Assembly (NCBI GenBank): GCA_944322935.1
Contig: CALUQO010000004.1
Span: forward strand, 1-64,000
Source of the DNA: Candidatus Gastranaerophilales bacterium
GTDB lineage: Bacteria > Cyanobacteriota > Vampirovibrionia > Gastranaerophilales > Gastranaerophilaceae
DNA: 64,000 bases
Direction: 5' to 3'
Part shown: one piece after another, positions 10,757 to 32,536 of the stretch
Layout: every line of letters begins with the position of its first letter
Numbering within the stretch: position 1 is the stretch's first letter
The notes under the pieces: model-generated
Told to the model about the DNA's origin: nothing
Seen by the model: the letters and a program-made list of their open reading frames with translations, nothing else
Databases searched by the model: none
Made by a program: the position numbers and the translations under genes

Positions 10757-10777
10757 ATTATTATAAATCCTTAGTTT

Positions 10778-12571: not shown

Positions 12572-13357
12572 TTACTCCAAAATCCAGGGGTTATCTTCAA
12601 TTAATCGTTGCGTAATTGCCTTGGCGTTTTCTGCAATATCTTTGTTGGAATTTTTTGTTAATTTTTCAAGTTTTGTATATTTGCTATATTCAAAATTTAT
12701 CCAGTATTTTGGGGCAGATTTATCAACCATTAATATTTTTAATGTTTTAAGCATTTCTGCAAGTGTAGATTCATTATAGGATACGTCCTTTCTGCCAATT
12801 TTTGACAAAATTGGTAAACAATCTATATCTTTCCCTACTTTGCCTACAAGTTTTGCATACTCTTTCATTATGTCGCTGTCCTTGGAAAGTTGGTATTCAT
12901 CATTTAGCTTGAGCATGTCCTCTCTTGTTCCGTAGTTTTGAAGCGCCTTGAGACCAAGAAGATTTTTTTCCTTGTTCATCGGTTTGAACGGTGGGTTAAC
13001 ATCCAAAAATTCATCCCAGATTGATTTTATATATTCGGCTTTTTCTTTTGCTAATTGTTCAGGGTTATTTTCCCCGGCTGTAAATTTAGGTTCAGGCAGT
13101 TTTATTTTAGTTTTTTGTTGTGCCGCAGAAATCTCTCTTGTTTCTTTTGTTAAATTATTTTTAAAGAGTTTTTGAAAAAATTTTGCTATTGTGTTTCTTT
13201 TGGCTATGGCCGCAGCAAGGAGAAGCAAAGATGAACCGCCGACAACGGCAGTTTGTACAGGCTTTTGCAGGATTTTATCTTTTATTGTTTTAGTTGCAGA
13301 ATTGTTTTGTGCGGATACTTTTGTCGGTCTATTTGGGGTAATCGGTAATATTTTCAT
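12572..13357 (-). CDS. Mosaic paralogue A, membrane-anchored, function unknown
   Basis: About 261 residues from the ATG at 13357 (MKILPITPN). An earlier in-frame ATG at 13381 overlaps the upstream gene and is less likely. One hydrophobic segment, AVVGGSSLLLLAAAIA, is followed by a basic stretch KRNTIAKFFQKLFKNN, giving a likely single-pass or signal-anchor topology. The middle contains the shared module running IKSIWDEFLDVNPPFKPMN and onward. The last ~85 residues are homologous to, but clearly diverged from, those of paralogues B and C; both endings finish NPWxLE. 388 bp of its DNA are almost identical to gene B. No catalytic motif seen. Confidence 0.8.
   Translation of the reverse strand: MKILPITPNRPTKVSAQNNSATKTIKDKILQKPVQTAVVGGSSLLLLAAAIAKRNTIAKFFQKLFKNNLTKETREISAAQQKTKIKLPEPKFTAGENNPEQLAKEKAEYIKSIWDEFLDVNPPFKPMNKEKNLLGLKALQNYGTREDMLKLNDEYQLSKDSDIMKEYAKLVGKVGKDIDCLPILSKIGRKDVSYNESTLAEMLKTLKILMVDKSAPKYWINFEYSKYTKLEKLTKNSNKDIAENAKAITQRLIEDNPWILE
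12834..13221. repeat. Direct repeat shared by paralogues A and B (copy in A)
   Basis: 388 bp matching 13631-14018 at a constant offset of 797 bp. I found a single visible substitution (tgtcgc versus tatcgc). It covers the membrane-proximal and central module of both proteins. Confidence 0.85.
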
Positions 13358-13365
13358 ATTGTTTT

Positions 13366-13843
13366 TTACTCCAGCATCCAAGGATTTTCATCCGATAGAC
13401 GTTTCATTATAGCTTTAGCATTTTCTGATATAATTTTGTTTGGATTATTTGATAGTCTTTCATAATCTTTGTATTCATTATAGCTGGCATTAACAAAATA
13501 ACCCTTTTCCGCTTTATCTACCATTAATTTTTTTAGCGTTTTTGTAATTTCTTCTATTGTTGGTTCACTATATAAATTTATTTTATTTTTATTCGTTTTA
13601 GCTCTTAAAGTAAGTGCATCTTTTGTAATACCTACTTTGCCTACAAGTTTTGCATACTCTTTCATTATATCGCTGTCCTTGGAAAGTTGGTATTCATCAT
13701 TTAGCTTGAGCATGTCCTCTCTTGTTCCGTAGTTTTGAAGCGCCTTGAGACCAAGAAGATTTTTTTCCTTGTTCATCGGTTTGAACGGTGGGTTAACATC
13801 CAAAAATTCATCCCAGATTGATTTTATATATTCGGCTTTTTCT
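13366..13843. repeat. Direct repeat shared by paralogues B and C (copy in B)
   Basis: 478 bp matching 14284-14761 (offset 918) with no difference that I can see, from the stop codon to 'ttcggctttttct'. It encodes the common C-terminal module. Confidence 0.88.
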
Positions 13844-14202
13844 TTTGCTAATTGTTCAGGGTTATTTTCCCCGGCTGTAAATTTAGGTTCAGGCAGTTTT
13901 ATTTTAGTTTTTTGTTGTGCCGCAGAAATCTCTCTTGTTTCTTTTGTTAAATTATTTTTAAAGAGTTTTTGAAAAAATTTTGCTATTGTGTTTCTTTTGG
14001 CTATGGCCGCAGCAAGGATAACAAGAGCTGCAGAGCCTGCAATGCCGGCTTTAATATATTTTTTTTGATTTTGTTTTGCTCTTTCTGCAGCTTCGAGCTT
14101 TTGTGCCCCAAGCACTGTATCGGTTGTAGGCCTTACCCATTCAGTTGCAGAAGGCGGTATTATATTAAAAGCTGAGTTTGATGATAGCGGCGATATTGTC
14201 AT
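13366..14202 (-). CDS. Mosaic paralogue B, membrane-anchored, function unknown
   Basis: About 278 residues from ATG 14202 (MTISPLSSN), chosen because GGAGG lies 7 nt upstream. The earlier in-frame start at 14229 has no such site. It has a hydrophobic segment AGIAGSAALVILAAAIA and then the same KRNTIAKFFQKLFKNN basic stretch as A. Its central part matches A almost base for base, while its C-terminal 159 codons match C exactly over 478 bp. It is therefore a hybrid of the two neighbours. No FKG tripeptide is obvious at the N-terminus. It ends 8 bp before the start of gene A. Confidence 0.82.
   Translation of the reverse strand: MTISPLSSNSAFNIIPPSATEWVRPTTDTVLGAQKLEAAERAKQNQKKYIKAGIAGSAALVILAAAIAKRNTIAKFFQKLFKNNLTKETREISAAQQKTKIKLPEPKFTAGENNPEQLAKEKAEYIKSIWDEFLDVNPPFKPMNKEKNLLGLKALQNYGTREDMLKLNDEYQLSKDSDIMKEYAKLVGKVGITKDALTLRAKTNKNKINLYSEPTIEEITKTLKKLMVDKAEKGYFVNASYNEYKDYERLSNNPNKIISENAKAIMKRLSDENPWMLE
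13631..14018. repeat. Direct repeat shared by paralogues A and B (copy in B)
   Basis: Partner of 12834-13221. Sequence on both sides diverges abruptly: the A-specific end region on one side and different N-terminal codons on the other. This fits gene conversion or a recent duplication. Confidence 0.85.
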
Positions 14203-14283
14203 GGAACGTCCTCCGAGTGTACAAAACATATGATAGATTTTTTTTGCATATTTGGGCTGTTTTGTTAAGATTTGTAATTTAAA

Positions 14284-14761
14284 TTACTCCAGCATCCAAG
14301 GATTTTCATCCGATAGACGTTTCATTATAGCTTTAGCATTTTCTGATATAATTTTGTTTGGATTATTTGATAGTCTTTCATAATCTTTGTATTCATTATA
14401 GCTGGCATTAACAAAATAACCCTTTTCCGCTTTATCTACCATTAATTTTTTTAGCGTTTTTGTAATTTCTTCTATTGTTGGTTCACTATATAAATTTATT
14501 TTATTTTTATTCGTTTTAGCTCTTAAAGTAAGTGCATCTTTTGTAATACCTACTTTGCCTACAAGTTTTGCATACTCTTTCATTATATCGCTGTCCTTGG
14601 AAAGTTGGTATTCATCATTTAGCTTGAGCATGTCCTCTCTTGTTCCGTAGTTTTGAAGCGCCTTGAGACCAAGAAGATTTTTTTCCTTGTTCATCGGTTT
14701 GAACGGTGGGTTAACATCCAAAAATTCATCCCAGATTGATTTTATATATTCGGCTTTTTCT
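14284..14761. repeat. Direct repeat shared by paralogues B and C (copy in C)
   Basis: Partner of 13366-13843. Part of it (about 14549-14761) is also shared with paralogue A, so three tandem copies of the core module exist within 2.4 kb. Confidence 0.88.
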
Positions 14762-15309
14762 GCAGCCTGCATATCTTTTACACTCTGTATGCACAAGTTT
14801 CTGTTCCTGTTAATTTCCGCAGCCTGTATTTTAAAGAAATGTTCTTCCATATCCGCGTTTTTGTAGCCAAAAGCTGCCTTTAGCACAGGAGTATTTTCCT
14901 TGACCCATTTTGAGTCAATAGTTTTTATATTCTTTAAATCTGCAAGAACCTTGTCATAATCCATACTGAAGTTAGGCAAAGGAATGATGGAATCCGCAGC
15001 TTTTTTCACCGCCGGTACAATTTCCTTTTGGGCCTTTTGAGGTTTTGTTGATTTTATAGATTTTTTAACAAATTTTTCATAAATAGGCTCTCCTCGTTTT
15101 TCCCAAAATTCTCCAAACTTTTCTTGCATTTTATTCTTGATATTTTGGGAGCCGTTTTTTAAGGAGGTTTTAAAATCCTCAAAACCTTTAAATGAACAGC
15201 TGTAAGCGTTTTGATACGGTTTTGATGCTAAAGTATTCACACTGTTTGAGCGGTGTATATTTTGATGGTGATTGTATGATTTTGCCTGTGTTATTTGATA
15301 AATTTTCAT
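14284..15309 (-). CDS. Mosaic paralogue C, FKG-tagged, function unknown
   Basis: 341 residues, starting MKIYQITQA with SD GAGGT just upstream. FKG is at about residues 40-42 (SCSFKGFEDF). The N-terminal 180 residues are unlike A and B: basic and helical, without the membrane segment (FGEFWEKRGEPIYEKFVKK). From AAEKAEYIKSIWDEF on it is identical to paralogue B. The abrupt junction points to domain swapping onto a common C-terminal module. Confidence 0.82.
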   Translation of the reverse strand: MKIYQITQAKSYNHHQNIHRSNSVNTLASKPYQNAYSCSFKGFEDFKTSLKNGSQNIKNKMQEKFGEFWEKRGEPIYEKFVKKSIKSTKPQKAQKEIVPAVKKAADSIIPLPNFSMDYDKVLADLKNIKTIDSKWVKENTPVLKAAFGYKNADMEEHFFKIQAAEINRNRNLCIQSVKDMQAAEKAEYIKSIWDEFLDVNPPFKPMNKEKNLLGLKALQNYGTREDMLKLNDEYQLSKDSDIMKEYAKLVGKVGITKDALTLRAKTNKNKINLYSEPTIEEITKTLKKLMVDKAEKGYFVNASYNEYKDYERLSNNPNKIISENAKAIMKRLSDENPWMLE

Positions 15310-19918: not shown

Positions 19919-20278
19919 TTAGGCCTCCCATTCATTTTTGCGGTATTGTTCAAAATCTTTTCTGATGACTCTTTCAATGTCAAAATCTATATCCTGATGT
20001 TTTTTTGTTTTTTGCTGAGGGATGTTTTGTTTTATTTTTTCGTAAAATTTTCCGGCGTTTTGGAATGCACCCGCGTTTTCAAAAATTTTTCCTATTTTGA
20101 AAAAAATTTTATTTTCATCTGATGCAGAAATGTTTGGCTCCAGTTCTTTAATTACTTTTTGAACTATTTCCACACTGTCAGCAGGTGCAATTTTGTCGGA
20201 GATTCTCTGTTGATAGAAGTTAAAATCATCTTTTGTGTAATTTAAAGAATAATTGTTTTTTAAAAATGAAATTTCCAT
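19919..20278 (-). CDS. Small helical protein of the tagged operon
   Basis: 119 residues from ATG 20278 (MEISFLKNNY); a TTG two codons upstream is an alternative. It starts with an M-x-I-like MEI and has DFNFYQQR near residue 20, a possible degenerate tag. The rest looks like a single TPR-like hairpin (FFKIGKIFENAGAFQNAGKF), which may make it an accessory to the TPR protein 3 bp downstream. Function unknown. Confidence 0.72.
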   Translation of the reverse strand: MEISFLKNNYSLNYTKDDFNFYQQRISDKIAPADSVEIVQKVIKELEPNISASDENKIFFKIGKIFENAGAFQNAGKFYEKIKQNIPQQKTKKHQDIDFDIERVIRKDFEQYRKNEWEA

Positions 20279-20316
20279 AATCAATTTGTTCTTTTTATTA
20301 AATTATTATTTTTATC

Positions 20317-20907
20317 TTATTCATAGTCATAATCCGTGTCTGAATCATCGTAATCATCTGAATCATGATGTGCAATGTCAGCGTTATCATCATCAATATT
20401 GCGGTAATTTGATGTCGAATTTGTTTCTTCGGATTTATTGCCTAATGTATCATAAGGATTGTAGTCCTCGTCCGTGTTTTGATTTTGTTCGGTTTTGCGG
20501 TTTTCTTCTTCTGCTTTTTGCGCTGATTTTTGCGCTGATTTTGGGAAAGTTTCGTTGTATGTTTCTTTTACGGATTTTATTTGCTCCATTGAATTTTTGG
20601 CAACATTCGCGGTTTTGTTGACAAAATTGTTGATTGTATCAGGCACTACCTCAGCGGCTGTAATAAGTCCGCCTCCTGTTGTCAATATGGCCCTACCGAT
20701 TTTTTTAGGTGTGTATTTGCCGCTGCCGCCATTACTGTCATTATTGCAACCATTTTGCGGTTCAGTGCTTGATGAAGATTGAAATGAATCATCTTCATCG
20801 AAAAGAATAGGGATATAGACAAGTTCATTGTCTTTTGCTCCATAATCAACAGTACGTTTAAAATTGTAATTATTAGGTTTAAAATAGAATGCATTTGAAA
20901 TTTTCAT
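20317..20907 (-). CDS. First gene of the tagged operon: acidic-tailed FKR protein
   Basis: 196 residues from ATG 20907 (MKISNAFYFK), with a GAGAG SD about 8 nt upstream. The ATG at 20940 would overlap the predicted -10 box. FKR is at residues 16-18 (YNFKRTVDYG). A Gly/Ser/Asn-rich linker is followed by a moderately hydrophobic stretch (IGRAILTTGGGLITAAEVV), a Lys/Gln/Glu helix, and a C-terminal tail made mostly of Asp, Ser and Tyr (DDSDTDYDYE). It is unordered and low complexity at both ends. No known family. Confidence 0.72.
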   Translation of the reverse strand: MKISNAFYFKPNNYNFKRTVDYGAKDNELVYIPILFDEDDSFQSSSSTEPQNGCNNDSNGGSGKYTPKKIGRAILTTGGGLITAAEVVPDTINNFVNKTANVAKNSMEQIKSVKETYNETFPKSAQKSAQKAEEENRKTEQNQNTDEDYNPYDTLGNKSEETNSTSNYRNIDDDNADIAHHDSDDYDDSDTDYDYE

Positions 20908-20938
20908 GTTTTTTACTCTCTCTTTTGGGCCATTGTTC

Positions 20939-20944
20939 ATTATA
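20939..20944 (-). promoter_or_regulatory. Probable -10 box of the ten-gene minus-strand operon
   Basis: TATAAT on the minus strand, about 25 nt of leader ahead of the first start codon at 20907. I see no convincing -35 box at the usual distance, in a very AT-rich stretch, so either an activator or a different sigma factor may be involved. Confidence 0.4.
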
Positions 20945-21136
20945 ATAATTGTGAATTAAATTTTTTGTTATTTTTTTACCCAAAATTTAATAAAAATTAA
21001 TAATATTATAAATTTGAGAGATGAGCTAAGTAAAAATAAAAATTTTTAGTTATATGCCGCGGCTGTTTGTCCGCTGCAGTTTACAAAAAATAGCTAAGCC
21101 TGTGTTTGCTGCATAAAATTATTGATGTTTCAGCTG

Positions 21137-21694
21137 TTAATTTACATTGTTCACGTTTATATTGTTATCAAGTTGAGGTTGTTCAATATCCGTTTGAATA
21201 TTATTATCTGTTTGTATTATATCTGCAGCCTGTCCTGTAGCTGTACCGTCTTGTTCTGTCTCTTCGTTTACGGGTGTAACAATTTCAACACCGAGCTTTT
21301 TTAAAGCTTGTGTTGCTTTTGGTGCAAGCGCTGTATCGGGGAAGTTTTCCAAAATGGTCTGGTAACATTCAATCGCTTCCTTTTTGTATTCGCGTGCAAG
21401 ATATAAATTTCCGGCCTTGTAATACAAAGGCGCAAGTGATAAGTCAGGAGAAACAAGCATTTGATTATCAAGCTTTATTTTAACTTCAATCATTTTAGAA
21501 TTGTCTTCCGGTGAGAAAAGAGAGTTTGAATAAACCTTACGTGTAAGATTGTCTATAGTTTCGGTCATTGCATTCAAGTCATCCCGCGTAACAACAGCAG
21601 CAGACTTTTTCGACTTTTTAGCAGCCTGAGAATCCTTTGCCGCCATTGAAAAAACAATCATTCCTATTAACAAAAGTATTAAAGTCTTTTTCAT
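21137..21694 (-). CDS. Exported TPR-like protein (CpoB/BamD-like)
   Basis: 185 residues. N-terminal signal peptide (KTLILLLIGMIVFSMAA, no lipobox Cys) with a basic KKSKKS stretch after the likely cleavage site. One clear TPR pair follows: LYYKAGNLYLAREYKKEAIE and CYQTILENFPDTALAPKATQ. The C-terminus is Gln/Asn/Asp-rich and probably disordered. It acts outside the cytoplasmic membrane, probably as an envelope scaffold. It is not part of the tagged operon: it has its own gap of about 230 bp and a different N-terminus. Confidence 0.75.
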   Translation of the reverse strand: MKKTLILLLIGMIVFSMAAKDSQAAKKSKKSAAVVTRDDLNAMTETIDNLTRKVYSNSLFSPEDNSKMIEVKIKLDNQMLVSPDLSLAPLYYKAGNLYLAREYKKEAIECYQTILENFPDTALAPKATQALKKLGVEIVTPVNEETEQDGTATGQAADIIQTDNNIQTDIEQPQLDNNINVNNVN

Positions 21695-21888
21695 ATTTGA
21701 TATACTCCCCTGATTATATTGTATTATAAATATTTTTTTTGGGGCTCATCCATATGGTTAATTTGTATTCATATGCAACTACTCTTTAAAACGGCAAATA
21801 ATGGGAAGGAATACTGGTATTTTGTGAGGAATTGTAAACTTTAAAATTATTTATAACAAAAAAATTTTTTCAGCTGTATTAATCGTGT

Positions 21889-22716
21889 ATGAGTATAAAA
21901 TTCAATTCACAATACGGCAGCAATACATATTTCTCGCATAAATACGGCAACCCGCCGGCTTTTAAAGGGGCAAGAGATGTAAACCTTAAATATATTTATG
22001 AAAATCGTCTCAGGCTTTTGCCGCAGCGGATACGCCGGAAAGTAACGAACATAGTGGAAAACAACGGCAATATATACGAGCCGTTGAGAGACATACATCT
22101 TAAGACCTATGCACCGCTGTTGGAATGCAAGACACTGGGCAAAGCTCAAAATATGTTTTACGAGTTTAAAGATGTGCTGCCCGCACAATTTGCAATACAA
22201 AATAAATCCCCTAACGTGAAAAAAATAATGCAAACTACGCAGCTTGAGGATTTATCGCTTGTGCTGCTGAAAGAACGCTGGGGAAAACTTAAAACACTGG
22301 ATGAAATAGCAAAAGATTTCGGCTTAAAAGGAAGAAACGCGCTTGCCTGGATTATGGACAAAATAAAAATTCCTGATTTCGGAACAAATTATCACAGACT
22401 ATTGAGCGCAACGGATGAAAAACTAAACAGAGAAATTGCTCAAAAAACAAAAGCCTATAACGCAGCACACCGAGGAGCCGTGCTTGCCAAAAACAGAGAG
22501 TTGAGTGAAAAGTATAAAGAATTGAACAGACAAATATCACAAACTGCGTGGGACAGGCTTCCGCATATAAAAGAAGCTTTTTCTGAAGTTTCATCACGCA
22601 CAAACGGGTCAGAACGTTTTGCTGTTTTTTGGAGTGAATATCCGGAATTTGCAAAGGAATTTGCTCAAATGAAAAAGACTGTCGCAGCAGAGCTCAGAGC
22701 GCAGCGTAAGTCCTAA
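21889..22716 (+). CDS. FKG-tagged protein with possible helix-turn-helix
   Basis: 275 residues starting MSIKFNSQY, FKG at residues 25-27 (PPAFKGARD). The middle contains KTLDEIAKDFGLKGRNALAW, which has the spacing of a helix-turn-helix. The C-terminal half is helical and basic. Function unknown; a DNA-binding role is plausible but rests on one predicted HTH. It is on the plus strand, so it belongs to a different transcript from the 8-21 kb block while sharing its N-terminal motif. Confidence 0.72.
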   Translation: MSIKFNSQYGSNTYFSHKYGNPPAFKGARDVNLKYIYENRLRLLPQRIRRKVTNIVENNGNIYEPLRDIHLKTYAPLLECKTLGKAQNMFYEFKDVLPAQFAIQNKSPNVKKIMQTTQLEDLSLVLLKERWGKLKTLDEIAKDFGLKGRNALAWIMDKIKIPDFGTNYHRLLSATDEKLNREIAQKTKAYNAAHRGAVLAKNRELSEKYKELNRQISQTAWDRLPHIKEAFSEVSSRTNGSERFAVFWSEYPEFAKEFAQMKKTVAAELRAQRKS

Positions 22717-22730
22717 CTTTAAGATTATTC

Positions 22731-24341
22731 CTAATCATCATTTTTAGGCAAGAGAATGCACCCTGTATTAGGGTTGTATTCACAAACGCAGTTTTTGCCG
22801 TTGTTTTTTGCGTTGTATAAAGCAACATCGGCAAGCTCTATGAGTGTTTGTTCATCCAACGCGCAGGACGGGTATTCACTCATTCCTATACTTACGGTAG
22901 GGCAGATGTAAATATCCTCTTTTACATTGATTTTAATTTTGCTTATATTTTTTCTGATTCTCTCGGCAATAATCTTTGCATCTTTGATATTTGTCTCAGG
23001 CAGAATAACGGTAAACTCTTCACCCCCGTATCTTGAGGCTATATCAATTTTTCTTATAGTTTGCTGTATACAGTTTGCAATTTCTCTCAGCACCTGATCG
23101 CCGACAGGGTGACCGTATGTATCGTTAACCTGTTTAAAATTATCTATATCCATCATTAACAGGGTCATTTCGTGATTATATCTTGATGAACGTTTGATTT
23201 CGTTTTCAAGCAGAGTGTAGAAATGCCTGTAAATATACAGCTTTGTTAAACCGTCTTTTGTTGCAAGCTCGTATAACTTTGCATTGTCAATTGCAATAGC
23301 CGCCTGATTTGCAAGGGCCTCAATAAACTCCAAATCCTGTTTATTGAACAGCTTGCCGTTGAGTTTGTTTGTAATATTTATAACCCCGATAGGTTCGCCT
23401 TTGGCAATCAAAGGTACGCACAACAAAGAATTAACGTTCAATTCCTGTCCGTTGTCAATAAATCGCGGGTCATTTTGACCGAGGTTTGATATTATTGATT
23501 TTTTTTCTACAAAAACAGTACCGGCTATGCCTTCGCCTACTTTAATTTTTGAACACTCAATCAGGCCGTTGTTTATTTCTGTTTCAAGGTTTTTGTCCGC
23601 AAGTCCGTAAACAACCTTTGTCTGCAGGACATTTTCCGTGAAATTGTAAAGCATCAAAGAGCCTTTTTCCGCGTCAATTGTTTCAAGTGCTTTATTCAAA
23701 ATAACACGCAAAAGACGTTTTAAGTCATCGATAAAGTTAACTGCCTGAGAAATATTGTACAAAATAGAAATGTTATGCAGTGATTTTTGCAAACGTTTAA
23801 GGTCGTTTTCCTGTTCTCTGCGTTTAATATATTTTATAAGAATAGGGCCTATATAGTTGAAAATTTTAGTTAAATACCTTAAATCCTCTTCAGAATATTC
23901 GTTTTTGTTGTCTTTTGTTCCCAGAGAACAAATAAAATACGGCATGTTATCTTTTTGAAATAATTTAAAATAACAGCTTTTTAAATTTTCCAAATCGTAT
24001 TTTTCCCAGAATGAGCGATAGATAGGTTTACCAGCCGCATCCGAAACTTTTATAAATTCATTTTTATTTAATACTTCCCAAAAACCTTCGTCGTCATTTT
24101 CAAATTGAAAATATTCCTGCGTGTCATTGCTGCTGGTTGCGACCATGTAATAAACTCTGTCATGGTTAATGAAAAATCTTACATCAGCAATGTTCAACCC
24201 CTGAGTAATAAATTCCGTAACTTTTTCTATCAAATCCTCTATTGAATCGGCCTGTGTAGCGATAATGCTGAGTTCAAACAAACTGTTCAGGTCGTAAAAG
24301 TTTTTTTGCAGTGTCGTAATTTTTTCAGAAAGATTTTCCAT
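22731..24341 (-). CDS. Diguanylate cyclase, GAF-GAF-GGDEF
   Basis: 536 residues. Two GAF-type sensory domains (about 15-170 and 195-355; the second has LLCVPLIAKGEPIGVINITN) and a GGDEF domain (about 370-525). The active site GGEEF is intact, and RKID sits five residues before it as a canonical RxxD inhibitory site, so it should make c-di-GMP from two GTP and be product-inhibited. There are no membrane segments: a cytosolic sensor whose ligand is unknown. It converges on the plus-strand gene ending 14 bp away. Confidence 0.93.
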   Translation of the reverse strand: MENLSEKITTLQKNFYDLNSLFELSIIATQADSIEDLIEKVTEFITQGLNIADVRFFINHDRVYYMVATSSNDTQEYFQFENDDEGFWEVLNKNEFIKVSDAAGKPIYRSFWEKYDLENLKSCYFKLFQKDNMPYFICSLGTKDNKNEYSEEDLRYLTKIFNYIGPILIKYIKRREQENDLKRLQKSLHNISILYNISQAVNFIDDLKRLLRVILNKALETIDAEKGSLMLYNFTENVLQTKVVYGLADKNLETEINNGLIECSKIKVGEGIAGTVFVEKKSIISNLGQNDPRFIDNGQELNVNSLLCVPLIAKGEPIGVINITNKLNGKLFNKQDLEFIEALANQAAIAIDNAKLYELATKDGLTKLYIYRHFYTLLENEIKRSSRYNHEMTLLMMDIDNFKQVNDTYGHPVGDQVLREIANCIQQTIRKIDIASRYGGEEFTVILPETNIKDAKIIAERIRKNISKIKINVKEDIYICPTVSIGMSEYPSCALDEQTLIELADVALYNAKNNGKNCVCEYNPNTGCILLPKNDD

Positions 24342-24509
24342 AATAATTATTCTATTCGAATTTTAACAATAATTCAATTATTTTATAGGGCATAAAAATA
24401 AGATTGTCCGACATAAACCTCCTTTGCGTCCGAAGCGGGTTTTCGATGGTATAGATTGGCTAAATATATAGTTTTGACGTATTGTGAGACGACGTCAGAG
24501 CAAATGGTT

Positions 24510-24528
24510 AAACCGGGTTAACCGGTTT
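24510..24528. promoter_or_regulatory. Palindromic site ahead of a secreted-protein gene
   Basis: AAACCGG (24510-24516), five bases, CCGGTTT (24522-24528). It lies in the 273-bp divergent region between the diguanylate cyclase and the exported protein, about 90 bp before the latter's start. The symmetry suits an operator, but a short RNA hairpin is equally possible. Confidence 0.4.
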
Positions 24529-24614
24529 GGCGTATGGTTTGTTTTTTAGTTTTAAATAAAAATAGAATCTGACAAATCCGCACAGTAAAGTCGGATATGG
24601 AGGATTTATGATTT

Positions 24615-25421
24615 ATGAATAATTTAAAAAAAACAGCAATAACGTCCCTGATGTTTGCCTTAAGTGCAACAATCTGTTTTGCAGCAATAAACGGCAATGT
24701 TGAAAAAAGCGGCATTTCAGGTGACTACAATCAGGTGATAGACTCACAAACACAAGCCCCTATAAGCCGGGCGGATGTTACACTGCCATCAAGAGGCTAT
24801 AAAACACAAACAGACTCTCAAGGAAGGTTTTCGCTAGGCGCAAAAATTAATGCTCCCACAATTATGTCAGTTGAAAAAGAAGGGTACAAACCTTTTTCTC
24901 TCACAATTGACGAGCAATCCGCAGGCAAACCCCTTGTCATCGGTATAGAAAAGACAAATCCGCATGACATTATTATTGACAAAGAGCTTTATCACATCGG
25001 GGATGACAACTATTCGGAACGCTCGGCCAACGCTGCCGACTTCAGAATAAAAGCAATCGGCCCGTTTTATACAAAAATTTTTAATATAAAAAAATTACCG
25101 CCTGACGGGGATATGTATCTTATAATAGGCTCCGTTATAGGCATTGATACAAAAATGGCCAGAGATATGGGGCAATCTAAAGTGACAACTTCGTTTGCCG
25201 CTCCGCCTCAAATTTATTTTAACGGCAATATGATTGCGGAATTGAACCTTAACGGGGATAACCAGCAAATAAAAATTCCTCACAGTCTTATCAGAATCGG
25301 CGAAAACCAGCTTACCATAAAAGCCGGGAAAAACCTGTTTCAAACGGCTTATGTGGATTATGACGATATAGAAATTATGAACCTTTTTATTGAATCAAAG
25401 TCTAAAATTGCCGCCGAATAA
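24615..25421 (+). CDS. Secreted protein with carboxypeptidase-regulatory-like domain
   Basis: 268 residues with a signal peptide (TAITSLMFALSATICFAA). Residues about 38-100 form a CarboxypepD_reg/transthyretin-like beta-sandwich: VIDSQTQAPISRADVTL, GYKTQTDSQGRFSL, VEKEGYKPFS. The remainder is beta-rich and unassigned. The SD TGGAGG (24598-24603) lies 4 nt before a tiny ATG-ATT-TAT-GAA-TAA reading frame (24608-24622) that overlaps this start; from the real ATG the spacing is 11 nt. That arrangement could lower or couple translation. Confidence 0.75.
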   Translation: MNNLKKTAITSLMFALSATICFAAINGNVEKSGISGDYNQVIDSQTQAPISRADVTLPSRGYKTQTDSQGRFSLGAKINAPTIMSVEKEGYKPFSLTIDEQSAGKPLVIGIEKTNPHDIIIDKELYHIGDDNYSERSANAADFRIKAIGPFYTKIFNIKKLPPDGDMYLIIGSVIGIDTKMARDMGQSKVTTSFAAPPQIYFNGNMIAELNLNGDNQQIKIPHSLIRIGENQLTIKAGKNLFQTAYVDYDDIEIMNLFIESKSKIAAE

Positions 25422-25559
25422 CAATTGTACGTGCTTTTACAAATAAAAATTATTAAAATAAAATTAAACCCTTTGCAAAACTCTTAAATTGTGAAAGAAT
25501 AATATAAAGTAATTACAAGAAATTGTTTTTCGCATCATTTATTATGAAAGGGTAAAATT

Positions 25560-26954
25560 TTGTTCGAACGGTTTACAGAAAAGGCAATAAACATTATTGC
25601 AACGGCACAAAAAGAAGCGGCAGATTCACAAACGTATAAAATTTACCCCGAACATATACTGTTAGGTATACTTGAAACTAAAAATAATATATGCTCCAGA
25701 CTTCTTGCTTACGGCGGTATGAAAGCTGATACTTTCCGGGAGTATGTGTATTCAAAATACAAAAACATTTCTCATGAATTTAAGCACACTAATATTGCTT
25801 TTAGTATTGAATCCCAAAAGATTATAAAACTGGCCTCGGAACTCGCCACAAAACGTACAAAGTCCTATATAAGACCGGAACATATACTCTTAGCTTTGAT
25901 AATGACCGGAGAAAAGGCTGACCCGTCAATTGCGGAAGATTTTAAAGACTATATCTCTGATATACAAAAACTCAAACAAACGCTTTTGACGCTTATTGCC
26001 AAAAACGATAAAAGAAATCTGCTTCATCCTGAGCTTGAAAGAAAAGAGCCAAAGAGCGAATATTCTACAGTTCAGTCAATTTTTAAAGAGGGCGAGGCGC
26101 AGGATATACTTGAGCGCGCGGTGGCAAAACTGACAGCGTCGCATTATGAAATTCTCGGAACGGAACAAATTGTTCAATCTATACTCGAGGATTCTAATTC
26201 AGATATAACAAAGCTTTTAAACGAATCGGGAATAAATCTTGACAGTTACTGTTCGAAACTAAAAGAGGTATCATCGCGTCAGGCCGAGTTTGAAGAAAAG
26301 CAGATTATTTTTACACCAAATGCTTTTAAAACCATGCTGCTTGCCTTCGAAACGGCAAAAGAGCTCGGCTCTGCAAGTGTAAAGCCCGAACATATTATAC
26401 TCGGAGTGTTGAAAGCTAAAAGCGGCATTGCGTACAATATTTTTAAAGAATTAAATATTGTTGATGATGACCTTGCGCATAAGATTATTAAACCGATTGA
26501 AAAACAAATGCCCGAAACTCTCACTATATTAAGACTGGCTAAGCGTGAGGCGCAGTCAATGAACCGTAATATTGTCGGCAGCGAGTTTATACTCCTCGGT
26601 ATACTCGGAGAGGGTGCGGGTATTGGCGCAAGAGTGCTGACTCAGCTGGGTGTTACAATAAAAGATGCACGTATCGAGGTTGACAGGGTGCTTGGGTATG
26701 GCAATTCTTATACATTTGGCGAGATAGTATTCTCTGACCGTGCTAAAAAGATTCTTGAGATTGCATGGGAGAAGGCTAAAAAGCATAAAAATTCCAAAAT
26801 CGAATCCGAAAACCTTCTCTGGGCAATTACACAGACGCCAGATTCCGTGGCAATGCAGGTTCTCGCTAACCTCGGGGTTGATGTTCTTGAGATTAATCAG
26901 GGGATTTTGAAGGAGCTTGAAGCGCTCAAGAATTCGGATAAAGCTGATAACTAA
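25560..26954 (+). CDS. ATPase-less Clp-R repeat protein (three ClpC-type N-domains)
   Basis: 464 residues from a TTG start with GAAAGGG 7 nt upstream. The protein opens MFERFTEKAI like ClpC and contains six Clp-R repeats (about 1-50, 80-130, 178-228, 250-300, 316-366, 390-440), typified by IYPEHILLGIL, IRPEHILLALI, VKPEHIILGVL and GSEFILLGILG. Two repeats make one Clp N-domain, so it has three N-domains and no Walker A/B or ClpP-binding loop. ClpC N-domains bind substrates and adaptors, so a decoy, adaptor or sensor role in regulated proteolysis is likely. It is well beyond the size of known stand-alone Clp-N proteins such as plant ClpT. Confidence 0.85.
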   Translation: MFERFTEKAINIIATAQKEAADSQTYKIYPEHILLGILETKNNICSRLLAYGGMKADTFREYVYSKYKNISHEFKHTNIAFSIESQKIIKLASELATKRTKSYIRPEHILLALIMTGEKADPSIAEDFKDYISDIQKLKQTLLTLIAKNDKRNLLHPELERKEPKSEYSTVQSIFKEGEAQDILERAVAKLTASHYEILGTEQIVQSILEDSNSDITKLLNESGINLDSYCSKLKEVSSRQAEFEEKQIIFTPNAFKTMLLAFETAKELGSASVKPEHIILGVLKAKSGIAYNIFKELNIVDDDLAHKIIKPIEKQMPETLTILRLAKREAQSMNRNIVGSEFILLGILGEGAGIGARVLTQLGVTIKDARIEVDRVLGYGNSYTFGEIVFSDRAKKILEIAWEKAKKHKNSKIESENLLWAITQTPDSVAMQVLANLGVDVLEINQGILKELEALKNSDKADN

Positions 26955-27733
26955 AATATTCTTGCATAAGACATAAAATAATCATTGATTACATTTACGA
27001 TAACAGGCATAATCCATAACAGAATTGCTGCGCCAAGAACCGGTTTAAACAGGAAGCTCAGCTGAAATACGTTAACCTGAGGCGCTGTTTTAGAAATTAT
27101 ACCTAAGATTAAATCCTGACCTAATGTTGCGAGCAACACGGGAGATGCTATTTGCAAACCTATATACAAAACATTCGAGGTTAGAGTCACAAGATATTCT
27201 TTGTTGATAAGTCTGTCCATCGGTATAGCCGAGGCATAAACGGGAAATATTTCCAAGCTCCTGTGCAGTGCGTTAATCAGCCAGTATAACCCGCCAACGT
27301 CAATAAATAAAATTACGGCAAGCAGCCCGAAAAAGTTCCCGAGAATAGATACCTGTGTTCCGACAGTCGGGTCTAAAACCATTGCAGAAGATAGCCCCAT
27401 CTGCATGTTTATCATATCGCCCGCTGCTGAAATAGCCAGAACTATGCAGTTTGCAATAAACCCTACAAGCATTCCTCCCACGACATTGAGTATAAGTCCG
27501 AGAATAAGAGAGGTTCCCGACGGTATCGGCCCTGTTTTTACTGTCATCATCAGTATTATGGTCAGTATAAGGGCAAATGCAAGCTTAATCATTCCGGGGA
27601 TTTCTTTTCTGTTCAAGACCGGCGCAAACCTTATAAACCCCATAAGACGCGCAAAAATCAACAGCCCTGCACCCAGTGCAGCGTTAACTTCCGGAAAATA
27701 TTTAGGAAATGCCTGTAATACCGCATCTATCAT
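26951..27733 (-). CDS. fliR: Flagellar/type III export protein FliR
   Basis: 260 residues, full FliR/SctT length, with six or more hydrophobic segments. Together with FliP and FliQ it forms the export gate of the flagellar or injectisome secretion apparatus. The hydrophobic pattern, the conserved ARLMGFIRFAPVL near the N-terminus and the gene order identify it. It ends by overlapping the convergent Clp-R gene by 4 bp, and its start overlaps the upstream gene as ATGA. Confidence 0.88.
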   Translation of the reverse strand: MIDAVLQAFPKYFPEVNAALGAGLLIFARLMGFIRFAPVLNRKEIPGMIKLAFALILTIILMMTVKTGPIPSGTSLILGLILNVVGGMLVGFIANCIVLAISAAGDMINMQMGLSSAMVLDPTVGTQVSILGNFFGLLAVILFIDVGGLYWLINALHRSLEIFPVYASAIPMDRLINKEYLVTLTSNVLYIGLQIASPVLLATLGQDLILGIISKTAPQVNVFQLSFLFKPVLGAAILLWIMPVIVNVINDYFMSYARIF

Positions 27734-28098
27734 TTATTCTTTTTCATATCCTTTATTGTGTCCAGTTCTATGACTGACGGGTCAACCGACTGGTTGTTGT
27801 CTATTAATACTTTTATTGTGTATTCGGAATTTGTTTTGCCGTATTTGTAGGTTATATAGGAAATTCCTTCCTGACGTGTTGACAAAACAAGCTGGCCTGT
27901 AGGTGTAAAACTGTCGCTTGTTGATGTAACATCAAGTATATTAGAGTTTGTAACCTGTATATCCTTCGGGCGCGCATCCACATTCAGGATATACACGCTT
28001 CCCGAATGCAGGTTAACGGTTTTATGAGGGGTAAGCGCAAAAACCTGACAGGTGTTTTGCAGTGCTATTATACATAATAAAGTTAATATCTTTTTCAT
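27730..28098 (-). CDS. Secretin N-terminal-like (T2SS/T3SS pil_N) exported protein
   Basis: 122 residues with a signal peptide (KILTLLCIIALQNTCQVFA). The mature part (TVNLHSGSVYILNV...PKDIQVTNSNILDV...ISYITYKYG) matches the small domain normally found at the N-terminus of CpaC/secretin pilotins, here standing alone. Its place between fliQ and fliR, with a 4-bp overlap into fliR, is not standard for flagellar operons. Confidence 0.72.
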   Translation of the reverse strand: MKKILTLLCIIALQNTCQVFALTPHKTVNLHSGSVYILNVDARPKDIQVTNSNILDVTSTSDSFTPTGQLVLSTRQEGISYITYKYGKTNSEYTIKVLIDNNQSVDPSVIELDTIKDMKKNK

Positions 28099-28110
28099 TC
28101 TTACCTCTGC

Positions 28111-28608
28111 TTATCTATTCATGATTGCGTTGCGTTCAATAAGGTTCGGTGTCGGGTTAGGCATTCTGTCCGACGGATAGTGTTTTGTTTTGGAGTTGTA
28201 ATCTATAAACGGAATCTTGCCGGGATTTCTCATAATATCTCCGATTTCCTGCTTGTCGAATCTTGTTGCGCCCTGTTTAAATTCTTCGTTAAACGGTTTT
28301 GTATATTTGTGGTAGTTTGCGGAAAGTACATAATTTTCAGACGCTGGAATGCTGTTAAACGCCATTTGATAACCTTCTAAAAGCAGGTTTGTTAACAGTT
28401 TTACGTATCCCATCCCCATAATCATCAATACAAGGAATACAGCAAGAATCTTAGGAGCGGCAGCGATTGTTTGTTCCTGAACCTGTGTTACGGCCTGCAA
28501 AATACCCACAACAAGACCGACCCCTGCCGCAACAAGTACGCACGGCATTGATATCATAAGCATTGTTATAAGGCCTTTGCCCATATATTCAAGTAATATT
28601 TCTATCAT
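28111..28608 (-). CDS. fliQ: FliQ with a long C-terminal extension
   Basis: 165 residues. The first ~90 are a normal FliQ (two membrane helices, GVGLVVGILQAVTQVQEQT), a gate subunit of the export apparatus. The remaining ~75 are hydrophilic and unlike other FliQ proteins (PFNEEFKQGATRF, MPNPTPNLIER), nearly doubling the usual length. No frameshift is needed to explain it. Confidence 0.88.
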   Translation of the reverse strand: MIEILLEYMGKGLITMLMISMPCVLVAAGVGLVVGILQAVTQVQEQTIAAAPKILAVFLVLMIMGMGYVKLLTNLLLEGYQMAFNSIPASENYVLSANYHKYTKPFNEEFKQGATRFDKQEIGDIMRNPGKIPFIDYNSKTKHYPSDRMPNPTPNLIERNAIMNR

Positions 28609-28625
28609 AATTTTACCCTGTTTTA

Positions 28626-29267
28626 CTAATTAAAGCTTGCGGCAAGCCCGTGCACAATCATGCTCCAGCCGTCCACCGCAATAAATATCAAAAGCTTAAA
28701 CGGCAATGATATGATTGTAGGAGACAGCATAAACATACCTAATGCCAAAAGTACGTTCGCCACTATCAAATCCAGTACAATGAACGGTACATAAATAACA
28801 AAACCTATTTCGAAGGCTGTTTTAAGCTCGCTTACGATATATGCCGGAGCCACCTGCCATATAGTGATATCATCGGGGCTTTTGGGTTTCGGTGCGCCGG
28901 AAAGTTGTATAAAAAACGTCATATCCGACTGTCGTGTCTGTTTCATCATAAACTCTTTCAAAGGTTTTGACCCTTCTGAGATAGCAGCAACAATATCACC
29001 ATTTTTCTGGTAAGGAACAGAGCCCATTTCCCACATTTTGCTAAAGACGGGATTCATCGTATAAATCGTCAAAATCATTGATAACCCGACAAGCACAATC
29101 CCCGGCGGAACCTGCTGTGTACCCAGAGCCTGTTTTAACATTGAAAATACAATAGTGTATCTTAAAAAGCTCGTCATACAGGTAAATATCAACGGCAAAA
29201 GTGAAAATACCGTCATTACCAGCAGCATTTGTAAAACCGGATTTAAATCTTTTAATACGCTTTCCAT
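28626..29267 (-). CDS. fliP: Flagellar/type III export protein FliP
   Basis: 213 residues. Core of the export gate, pentameric in known systems. Diagnostic stretches: LRYTIVFSMLKQALGTQQVPP, here present as FLRYTIVFSMLKQALG followed by TQQVPPGIVLVGL, and the C-terminal FVIYVPFIVLDLIVANVLLA with LPFKLLIF. It lacks the cleavable signal peptide of many FliP proteins, as in SctR homologues, so the system could be flagellar or injectisome-like. It is 17 bp upstream of fliQ. Confidence 0.92.
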   Translation of the reverse strand: MESVLKDLNPVLQMLLVMTVFSLLPLIFTCMTSFLRYTIVFSMLKQALGTQQVPPGIVLVGLSMILTIYTMNPVFSKMWEMGSVPYQKNGDIVAAISEGSKPLKEFMMKQTRQSDMTFFIQLSGAPKPKSPDDITIWQVAPAYIVSELKTAFEIGFVIYVPFIVLDLIVANVLLALGMFMLSPTIISLPFKLLIFIAVDGWSMIVHGLAASFN

Positions 29268-29299
29268 TATTTTATATCCCTTGTTTTTATAATTTACAA

Positions 29300-29830
29300 T
29301 CAGTCCTGAGCAGTTACGTTTTCATTGAGTTTTCGCAACAGCTCCCGCATAACAGGACGTTTTATATTTGTGGAATCCCCTTCCAAAACGTGCATTACCT
29401 CCGTGTAATCAACACCTTTTTCCGTCTTTTTTACGGCCGGTTCATTGCCTGATGCAATGTAAGAACGTTCCAGAGGGCTTTCTTTTTTAGCCGGCTGAAC
29501 TAAAATCGATTTGATATTTTCCGTAAAGCTGCCGGCCGGTTTTTCCACATCTATTGTTGCAATGTTGTCGAGCTGAACATTACCGTTAAGTTTTGCCAGA
29601 AACGTTGTTCTGTCTAAATCAGCGGCAATGAGAAATCTTTCATCGCCTGCATTAACAACATAAAGTGTTTTGCGCGGTGAAAGCCTCAGAGCGTTATCTA
29701 TTTTTAAACCTTTTGTGTTTTGCGCGGAATTGTTTCCGACCATGGTTTTTTTGTACACCATAACCCCGAGAAACAGCAGTCCCACCATCGCCATTGTATA
29801 AACTATAAAGTTAATTAAATATGTTCCCAT
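29300..29830 (-). CDS. fliO: FliO-like membrane protein
   Basis: 176 residues: one N-terminal membrane helix (YTMAMVGLLFLGVMVY), then a compact domain with LRLSPRKTLYVVNAGDERFL, the characteristic FliO pattern. FliO assists FliP complex assembly in flagellar systems and is absent from injectisomes, which argues for a flagellar origin of this operon. The C-terminal ~80 residues are low complexity. Confidence 0.75.
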   Translation of the reverse strand: MGTYLINFIVYTMAMVGLLFLGVMVYKKTMVGNNSAQNTKGLKIDNALRLSPRKTLYVVNAGDERFLIAADLDRTTFLAKLNGNVQLDNIATIDVEKPAGSFTENIKSILVQPAKKESPLERSYIASGNEPAVKKTEKGVDYTEVMHVLEGDSTNIKRPVMRELLRKLNENVTAQD

Positions 29831-29849
29831 TATTTTTTCCCTATGTTAA

Positions 29850-31112
29850 TTACAAATCATCTTCATCTACATCAAAGTCGCTGTAGTCAAAATCTTCTTC
29901 GTTTACTTCGGAATTTTCGTTTTGCATAAGCGGTTGTTCTTCGTAACTTTGTTGTGCTTCTGGCTGAGGCATTGCCTGTGTTTGTGTATTTTGTACAGAT
30001 TCTTCAATGTCTTGCTGCCCGGAATGCTGAGCATTTTGCGAAGCCTGATTTTTTTCTTCTGTAAATATTTGATTAATTTTGACCCCGTACCTGTCATTTA
30101 TAATGATTAATTCACCGGAGGCAACAATTTTGTCTTCCACTTTTAAATCGACCTTGTTGTCATAAACAGAGCCTATGTCGATTACAAGTCCTTCTGAGAT
30201 TTGTTTAAGCTCTCCGAGGGTGAGTTTTACTTCTTCAAATTCTGCATTTATTTCCACCTGAATGGTATCCCACATGTTATACATATCAGAACCGGGCATT
30301 GTTTTTTCTCCTTTCGCTCCGTTAGGGCTTTCTTCAAAATTGTTTTCGTAATCCGCCATGATATCAGGGTTAGGTACGACCCTAAACTTAACGGAATGAT
30401 TCTCATATTTTATTGTCATCAGCGATGACTTGCTGTTTTCAAGAACTACTATATCGTCTTTTTCAAGATTTTTTAGGTCATTTAGTCTGATTTTTGTTGT
30501 GCCGACGCTGACTCTTACTTTTGCGCTGCAGCTTTCAAAATCTGAAATCGTAAAGCTTTCTTCTTCTGCTTTTTCAAGCTCCTGCGGCTCAATTGCAATA
30601 ACAGGAATTTTTATAACGATTCTGCCGAGTGTAACTTTGTTTACTCGAACGAAAAAGGTGAGGTTGCATTCGTTGTAGTTGTTGTTCATATCGGGCAAGT
30701 CGTCACCGGATTTCACCATCTCGCAAAAATTTTGATAAAGAAAATCGTCAAACCCAGTAAGTATTTTTGCTTCCAGGTCAGTCAGTTTGTCTATATTAAA
30801 GGTTTTTCCGTTTGTGCCGAGAATATTTTCCAGCAGCGCTTTAACCAGTTTTTTGGAAAGCCGTATAAATACTGATAACTCACGATTGAGTCTTATTTGT
30901 GTAACGAAGAATTCATCGCGTTCTGCGAGGATATTTGTGTTTTCGCTGACACTCATCAGCTTAATCTCAGGCTGTGCACCCCAGTATTCCGCAAACGAGG
31001 CAGCAACAATGTTTGTAAAACGGCTGTCAAACCATTCGTATGTCCGGTTCAAATTGTTAGAAAATTCTGATGTTATGTATTCTTCTTCCTGCCCGTATTG
31101 CATATTTTGCAA
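29850..31112 (-). CDS. FliM/FliN-type switch protein with two SpoA domains
   Basis: 420 residues. Residues ~1-195 resemble the FliM middle domain (GKTFNIDKLTDLEAKILTGF). Two SpoA/FliN-type domains follow (about 205-260 and 280-355, the second with EINAEFEEVKLTLGELKQI and GVKINQIF). The tail is a Gln/Glu/Asp-rich disordered segment ending EDFDYSDFDVDEDDL. It should form part of the cytoplasmic switch/C-ring or a sorting platform. Two SpoA domains plus an acidic tail in one chain is unusual; classic FliM has one and FliN one. First gene of the export operon. Confidence 0.82.
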   Translation of the reverse strand: MQNMQYGQEEEYITSEFSNNLNRTYEWFDSRFTNIVAASFAEYWGAQPEIKLMSVSENTNILAERDEFFVTQIRLNRELSVFIRLSKKLVKALLENILGTNGKTFNIDKLTDLEAKILTGFDDFLYQNFCEMVKSGDDLPDMNNNYNECNLTFFVRVNKVTLGRIVIKIPVIAIEPQELEKAEEESFTISDFESCSAKVRVSVGTTKIRLNDLKNLEKDDIVVLENSKSSLMTIKYENHSVKFRVVPNPDIMADYENNFEESPNGAKGEKTMPGSDMYNMWDTIQVEINAEFEEVKLTLGELKQISEGLVIDIGSVYDNKVDLKVEDKIVASGELIIINDRYGVKINQIFTEEKNQASQNAQHSGQQDIEESVQNTQTQAMPQPEAQQSYEEQPLMQNENSEVNEEDFDYSDFDVDEDDL

Positions 31113-31507
31113 AGTTTATCCCTTAATCTTTACAACTTCCCCTATAGTAATCTTAGAAACACCCGGCAGTTTTAACATCATTTATACGGTGTATTTAGTT
31201 AAAAAAATTTGAAATCCTGCTGTGTGTTGATGTTATGGGCAGCGGTATTTTCCCGATTTTGTAACAGATTGTTAACAAAAAATTAATGCAGAGGTTAATA
31301 AATGCCATAAAGAACCAAAAATAATTACAGGAACGCTTAAATAAAAACAAAGTAAAAGTTGTATACGGAAAAAACATATACGACCCCTTGCGGCATAATA
31401 AAGCGCTGACACGGATAATTATAAATTTTATAAACGGAAGAATATTTTCGATACAGACTGTATTATGCTATAATGCGGAAGAAACAGTATAAGAAGTAAG
31501 GAAAACG
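31113..31507. promoter_or_regulatory. Divergent promoter region
   Basis: 395 bp without a gene, between the export operon (leftward) and the cation antiporter (rightward). For the latter, an extended -10 TGCTATAAT ends at 31474, and an AAGGA SD lies just before ATG 31508. I see no clear promoter for the export operon and no structured RNA. Confidence 0.5.
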
Positions 31508-32536
31508 ATGGAAGCAGTAATTCACGGAATTTTAACGTTATTAAATTTATGTCTTATAGTCGGCTGCTGTGTAGTTTTTACAAATGCAGTTGAACATATG
31601 GGAAAATTATATAAACTAAACGAAGGTGCAGTAGGGAGTATACTGGCTGCAGTGGGAACCGCCTTGCCGGAAACAATTGTTCCGCTTGTTGCAATTCTTG
31701 GAGCTTACCTTGCGCATACGGATGTTAACGTAGGGAAAGAAATTGGTATAGGTGCAATACTTGGTGCTCCGTTTCTGTTATCAACATTGGCAATGTTTGT
31801 AACAGGTGTTGCCGTACTTGCTTTTTGGAAGCTCGGCAAAAGAGAACACGCGATGAATGCTCATTACGAAGTAATGTTCAGGGATTTAAAGTTTTTCTTT
31901 ATAAGTTATACCATTGCCATTGCTGCAGGTTTTGTGCACTATAAGTGGGGCAAGATTTTGTGTGCCGTTGCATTATTTGCATATTACATACTTTATGTTT
32001 TCAGAACTTTAAACTGTGCGCACTGTGAAGGAATGGAAGGTGAAGAGCTCGACGAACTGTTGTTCACAAGAATATTAAAAAAATACAACAAAATTGTTGT
32101 TTGGCTGCAGATAATTGTTTCCATCTCGCTGTTGATTGTATTTGCACATATGTTTGTCGGTCAAATACAATTCTTTGCACAACTGTTCAGCATAAATCCG
32201 CTGGTGCTCAGTCTTATCTTGGCACCGATAGCTACGGAATTACCGGAAAAGTTCAACAGCGTATTATGGGTAAGTCAGAGCAAAGATACACTTGCGCTGG
32301 GTAATATTACTGGTGCAATGGTTTTTCAAAGCTGTATACCGACTGCTATCGGGATTCTTTTAACACCATGGGTATTTGGTATGGAATCACTAATAAACAT
32401 AGTGCTAGTATACCTTTCCACCGTTATATTATTCATCAATCTGTATAGAGATAAAGCATTCAGCCCTCATATACTAATTACTTGCGGAGCATTTTATCTG
32501 ATTTATATTGTGTATATTTTCTGGAAAGTGATTTAA
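31508..32536 (+). CDS. Sodium/calcium exchanger-family cation antiporter
   Basis: 342 residues, about ten membrane segments. Two inverted alpha-repeats carry the ion-binding signatures VGTALPETIVPLVAI (about residue 53) and APIATELPEKFNSVLWVSQ (about 240), as in CaCA/YrbG-type exchangers. The acidic Glu of each repeat is kept, so transport should be intact. Expected to exchange Na+ or H+ for Ca2+. A short Cys/His patch (CAHCEGMEGEELDE) in the central loop is non-standard and could bind metal. Confidence 0.87.
   Translation: MEAVIHGILTLLNLCLIVGCCVVFTNAVEHMGKLYKLNEGAVGSILAAVGTALPETIVPLVAILGAYLAHTDVNVGKEIGIGAILGAPFLLSTLAMFVTGVAVLAFWKLGKREHAMNAHYEVMFRDLKFFFISYTIAIAAGFVHYKWGKILCAVALFAYYILYVFRTLNCAHCEGMEGEELDELLFTRILKKYNKIVVWLQIIVSISLLIVFAHMFVGQIQFFAQLFSINPLVLSLILAPIATELPEKFNSVLWVSQSKDTLALGNITGAMVFQSCIPTAIGILLTPWVFGMESLINIVLVYLSTVILFINLYRDKAFSPHILITCGAFYLIYIVYIFWKVI

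Follow-up and report, generated by a model that had tools for sequence, protein, structure and literature searches.

A 464-residue protein of Candidatus Gastranaerophilales, encoded within the window (the whole 64,000-nucleotide stretch of DNA that we analyzed, from contig CALUQO010000004.1 of assembly GCA_944322935.1), consists of three ClpC-type N-domains in tandem and has no ATPase attached, and its gene is carried by nearly every genome of the order. Our best explanation, to which we assign a probability of roughly 55%, is that this protein serves the ClpC system as an accessory subunit without an ATPase, a paralogue specific to the order that is made of three ClpC N-domains and would act in trans as extra ClpC heads. 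The gene, its domains and its sequence signals are laid out as follows:

25436..25464, + strand: sigma-70-like promoter match (TTTACA-17-TAAAAT, 10/12) in the 138-bp upstream gap, by consensus match only
25546..25552, + strand: likely ribosome binding site (GAAAGGG) upstream of the TTG start, read from the sequence
25560..26954, + strand: whole gene with three ClpC-type N-domains; 464 aa, six Clp_N repeats, AAA+ module absent
25560..25994, + strand: domain 1 (aa 1-145), which begins MFERFTEKA as ClpC does and retains the T7, K/R9, E32, F80 and E106 equivalents
26025..26033, + strand: linker tripeptide His-Pro-Glu (aa 156-158), located between domains 1 and 2 and unchanged in 57/57 orthologues
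26067..26498, + strand: domain 2 (aa 170-313), with Phe (F256) in place of the K85 equivalent in 47/47 of the A1 set, glutamates retained
26511..26924, + strand: domain 3 (aa 318-455), the nearest to ClpC; E342 (E32), R394 (R83) and K396 (K85) invariant in 57/57

The preliminary description of this DNA had proposed a stand-alone triple ClpC N-domain, with six Clp repeats in 464 residues and no ATPase, and the proposal held. A Pfam scan matched Clp_N (PF02861) in six stretches (E 2.6e-46; 156 bits against a curated cut-off of 20.7) as the sole family over its cut-off, with no ClpS or MecA domain in the protein and no AAA+ family above cut-off either in it or in the five neighbours scanned. The two AAA+ modules that are the hallmark of the Hsp100 chaperones ClpC and ClpB are therefore absent. 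We also looked for an AAA+ part in a neighbouring frame and rejected a split gene: the neighbours had no AAA+ match, the Walker A pattern G-x4-G-K-[ST] occurred zero times in the six frames of 20001-32000 (about 5 kb to either side), and the genome has an intact clpC on another contig. NCBIfam has no model for the triple Clp_N protein, and the N-terminal parts of its ClpB, ClpA, ClpK and ClpV models matched far below their cut-offs. The AlphaFold2 prediction, made from an alignment of 47 orthologues, comprised three helical domains (mean pLDDT 81.6) joined by weakly predicted linkers, with a pTM of only 0.57, such that the relative placement of the three domains is not fixed by the model. Crystal structures of ClpC N-domains were the best Foldseek matches (target-normalised TM about 0.9), and VIA-align, applied mostly to domain 3, gave a Z of 23 for the ClpC N-domain, 19-20 for ClpT1/ClpT2 and 15-16 for ClpC2. 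The N-domains of ClpT, ClpB, ClpD, ClpC2 and ClpA followed those of ClpC in these searches, and domain 1 was matched by ClpB, ClpD, ClpC2 and Hsp104.

Every genome of the genus (23/23) has an orthologue, as do 186/192 across the order Gastranaerophilales (178/182 among those at least 90% complete), the near-complete copies being mostly 436-467 aa long; the named relatives carrying the gene are all Candidatus Gastranaerophilales or Melainabacteria. The six genomes with no match include one with a contig break (G232), one with a 143-aa version comprising domain 1 only (G269), and two (G349 and G394) that look like true losses, because their only Clp_N frames are of the ClpC/ClpB type. The shortened orthologue of G269 (L193:2113-2544, in a 1.5-Mb genome) groups inside the domain 1 clade. 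Frames of 909 and 911 aa in G207 and G183 do not represent a gene fusion, as they run through a stop into tilS, which lies downstream in the same frame. In a phylum-wide sample, genomes outside the order gave weak ClpC-like matches only, full-length orthologues were not found in photosynthetic cyanobacteria, and plasmids yielded no close relative, only ClpC/ClpC2-type matches of <35% identity. Among ten genomes of sister families in the class, Clp_N occurred only in ClpC/ClpB-sized frames, apart from two short frames (G363:C18:95055-95180 and G336:C5:173967-174377; 181 and 187 aa) that are possible two-repeat stand-alone Clp_N proteins.

In comparisons inside the genus and with the next genus, dN was 0.03-0.28 with dS at or near saturation (dN 0.03 and dS >2 for the nearest pair tested), indicating strong purifying selection, and the rate for domain 1 was about double that for domains 2 and 3. 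Because near-complete orthologues occur throughout the order and are under purifying selection, this is a genuine gene, neither a fragment nor an oddity. That it might be an annotation artefact, or a clpC copy that has decayed or been split, a reading that could appeal to the 36% identity between domain 3 and the host ClpC N-domain, is scarcely conceivable given the purifying selection, the full length kept in those 186 genomes, the intact clpC elsewhere, and the lack of AAA+ remnants.

The gene begins with TTG and runs for 464 codons, and the same start codon in 58/66 orthologues examined suggests modest translation. No exact match to the CIRCE heat-shock operator occurred within the window. 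Next to the triple Clp_N gene lie genes for a GGDEF protein and for a secreted protein of carboxypeptidase-regulatory-like type, together with a convergent flagellar export cluster that begins with fliR. Elsewhere in the window, three adjacent genes at 12572-15309 (-) have ~130-180 near-identical residues in common behind differing N-termini, resembling recent partial duplications, and two adjoining AAA+-like genes at 9149-12427 (-) (535 and 549 aa, with Walker A sequences GPIGCGKSK and GPTGCGKTA) stand among several neighbours with a short N-terminal FK-containing motif (e.g., PAFKG, TAFKS).

In ClpC, T7, R9 and E32/E106 belong to phosphoarginine (pArg) pockets and M-domain contacts, with E32 and E106 forming the pArg/MecA pockets; the N-domain is held on AAA1 by K85, which also touches cyclic peptides and MdfA (PMC12583610). 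We mapped residues to S. aureus ClpC numbering using an S. aureus sequence that served only as a ruler, on which the twelve residues named in PMC12583610 landed on the correct letters. Domain 2 had lost the T7, R9 and K85 equivalents. Domain 3 had lost those of T7 and R9 and, throughout the closer set (47/47), retained those of F80 and E89, with incomplete retention of the latter two in the deepest branches. By residue correspondence, the residues that make up the surface of a single ClpC N-domain are therefore divided between domains 1 and 3. The protein thus has the fold of the ClpC N-terminal domain and, in domain 3, its K85, R83 and E32 equivalents, but differs from ClpC in lacking AAA+ modules and M-domain and in having three tandem domains, each with a different subset of surface residues. 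The linker between domains 1 and 2 is variable in length and sequence and modelled with low confidence, yet its HPE is invariant, making this tripeptide a candidate docking motif. We did not count the TEH/PEH glutamates alone as evidence for a conserved pArg function: because ClpA- and ClpB-type repeats also carry them, E32/E106-type glutamates would be no proof of pArg or adaptor binding, and McsB gave no match in a search whose positive control did not work.

Domain 3, and partly domain 1, retain the surface with which the ClpC N-domain grips its ligands and packs on the ClpC motor, so the three linked heads should bind the same ligands as ClpC, whether substrates, adaptors or peptides, and possibly ClpC itself. 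By doing so, the protein would alter how much ligand ClpC engages. We infer this sharing of ligands from residue retention, and the partnership with ClpC and the direction of the effect are likewise predictions. Consistent with such a partnership, the gene is near-universal in the order alongside an intact ClpC that carries the M-domain Glu and Phe. In the host ClpC the E359, E435 and F436 equivalents are present (E435/F436 belonging to the M-domain), but docking of the triple Clp_N protein on the motor appears possible rather than secure, because D356 of the S. aureus ClpC anchor is Ser in the host ClpC, and E426 is Gln there.

Published stand-alone relatives offer two other readings. Mycobacterial ClpC2 (Rv2667 type) likewise has a ClpC N-domain and no ATPase, with an intact ClpC1 alongside; it binds a ClpC1 ligand, thereby titrating it, and acts as a repressor of its own gene (PMC10030653). 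This direct precedent raises the prospect that our protein is a sponge for toxic peptides aimed at the ClpC N-domain, as proposed for ClpC2 and cyclomarin, and the F80 and E89 equivalents of domain 3 fit such a role. However, the cyclomarin trio F2/F80/E89 is complete in no single domain: domain 3 has Ile at F2, domain 1 has F2 and F80 with Lys or another residue at E89, and domain 2 has Asn or Ser at E89. Moreover, ClpC2 carries its one ClpC-type N-domain behind an N-terminal four-helix dimerisation domain (PMC10030653), whereas the triple Clp_N protein is N-domain from residue 1 to about 455 and has no such dimerisation domain, and the weak TTG start of most orthologues argues against the high abundance expected of a sponge. 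We therefore regard a peptide sponge as quite unlikely.

The plant and algal proteins ClpT1 and ClpT2 also have a stand-alone Clp_N fold, and ClpT1 has ClpC2 and ClpD as binding partners and raises the ATPase activity of ClpD (PMC4243950). A ClpT-like role, in which the heads bind the ClpP ring and govern core assembly or chaperone docking, would draw on this fold match and on the presence of clpP within a few kb downstream in 8/67 related loci. Nevertheless, the protein resembles ClpC more than ClpT, the clpP linkage is the exception, and a published account confines ClpT to algae and plants (PMC7966870), where it has two repeats and sits on the plastid ClpP core, as against six repeats in a bacterial protein. 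We consider this role very unlikely. A search on the ClpT 'MYFF motif' gave nothing. A third kind of relative, the tandem Clp_N fusions such as the vWA proteins of conflict systems (PMC7159879), resembles our protein in repeating Clp_N outside AAA+ proteins, but those are fusions in conflict systems, and ours stands alone as a core gene of a single order. We found no literature description of a triple ClpC N-domain protein, in a search that covered few subscription journals.

In related genomes the triple Clp_N gene lies directly 5' of tilS in 53/67 loci and directly 3' of a DUF1292 gene in 51/67, with gaps of a few bases, the typical order being a ClpX-zinc-domain gene, a HEAT-like protein gene, ruvX, DUF1292, the triple Clp_N gene, tilS and hpt. 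This linkage is strong in most of the main family and not universal, because deep-branching families and the window's genus have the gene at other places; we therefore ruled out a constant operon partner. In the source genome, which is 99.8% complete, the operon block lies on contig C1 without the triple Clp_N gene, the typical setting having been lost in the window's genus, and an intact 822-aa ClpC, ClpB, ClpX and two ClpP are all encoded on contigs other than that of the window. The earlier statement that no clpC or clpP lies nearby is accordingly correct for the window (clpC is on C7 and the two clpP on C9 and C66), because of a gene order peculiar to its genus; across the loci examined, clpC adjoins the triple Clp_N gene in none.

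The tight spacing to DUF1292 and tilS in most relatives, together with the divergence of domain 2, could instead point to a holdase or scaffold that is independent of ClpC and serves operon neighbours such as RuvX, DUF1292, TilS and Hpt. But the protein remains conserved in other contexts (the window's genus and the deep-branching families), and those neighbours are housekeeping genes with no common pathway, such that we think this reading unlikely.

Often upstream of the triple Clp_N gene is a gene for a stand-alone ClpX C4 zinc-binding-domain protein of about 90 aa (80-110) that has no ATPase (L146:7074-7340, on G000:C1, +; also L042-L095). It matches PF06689 (E 6e-14), the same genomes also encode a full ClpX, and a literature text search on PF06689 returned nothing related. 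Adjoining it is an order-wide protein of 500-570 aa (L146:7353-8984 and alignment A2), for which AlphaFold2 (pLDDT 88) predicts HEAT-like helices, a small beta domain and a helical tail, with no significant PDB fold match. We tentatively entertain a broader scheme, with odds clearly against it, in which the triple ClpC N-domain protein and the stand-alone ClpX zinc-domain protein, whose genes share a block in most of the main family, form a trans-acting recognition layer for both Clp proteases of Gastranaerophilales, regulating ClpCP and ClpXP either as competitors of the motors' own heads or as their suppliers.

We then considered adaptors. ClpS and NblA have been described as ClpC adaptors of cyanobacteria (PMC7966870). 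ClpS was not detected in 28 genomes of the class, sister families included, and was found in cyanobacteria and other controls; MecA was not detected in 9 relatives in a search whose controls worked. The preliminary description had suggested that the protein titrates adaptors or tethers substrates to ClpCP, which remains plausible in general terms given the precedents of ClpC2 and ClpT1, but titration of known adaptors is weakened as an idea because neither ClpS nor MecA was detected. A related proposal is a delivery platform, on which the three heads catch clients and pass them to ClpCP in place of the missing ClpS and MecA. With ClpC, ClpX and two ClpP present, the avidity of three linked heads and the invariant HPE of the linker would suit this function. 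However, ClpS is absent also from sister families that do not have the gene, so the gain of the gene does not coincide with the loss of ClpS, which rules out a simple exchange of one for the other, and none of the known adaptors is itself a ClpC N-domain. Active delivery is thus a doubtful reading, albeit one to be taken seriously. For an accessory subunit of the ClpC system, holding or sequestering ligands seems slightly ahead of delivering them, because this is how all those stand-alone ClpC N-domains act for which we found a published test of the cellular effect (ClpC2).

Finally, we traced the three domains in a single-domain tree, in which deep placement is tentative owing to the shortness of the domains. 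Domains 2 and 3 each formed one clade across the order (support 100), domain 3 grouped with ClpC (support 91), and domain 1 was not a resolved clade when the tree was rooted on ClpB. Because domains 2 and 3 are each a single order-wide clade, the three-domain protein was, judging from this tree, built once, before the radiation of the order, by which time its domains had already diverged. Two other rearrangements of Clp_N came to light in the course of this work: a 913-aa ClpC (L097:1712-4453) with an apparent duplication inside its N-domain that yields an extra Clp_N repeat, for which an assembly error is possible, and, in a Trichodesmium MAG (L098:2410-3985), a tandem pair of ClpC-type N-domains followed by TPR-like repeats, with no AAA+ in the available part.

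The targets of Clp proteases are decided by adaptors and N-domains, and the stand-alone ClpC heads known so far are small one-domain proteins of mycobacteria and plastids. An order-wide core gene for three differentiated heads, in bacteria in which no ClpS or MecA was detected, suggests another mode of ClpC regulation. Its heads also form a naturally occurring panel of N-domains that keep ligand-binding residues apart from motor-anchoring ones, through which the roles of these residues become testable.
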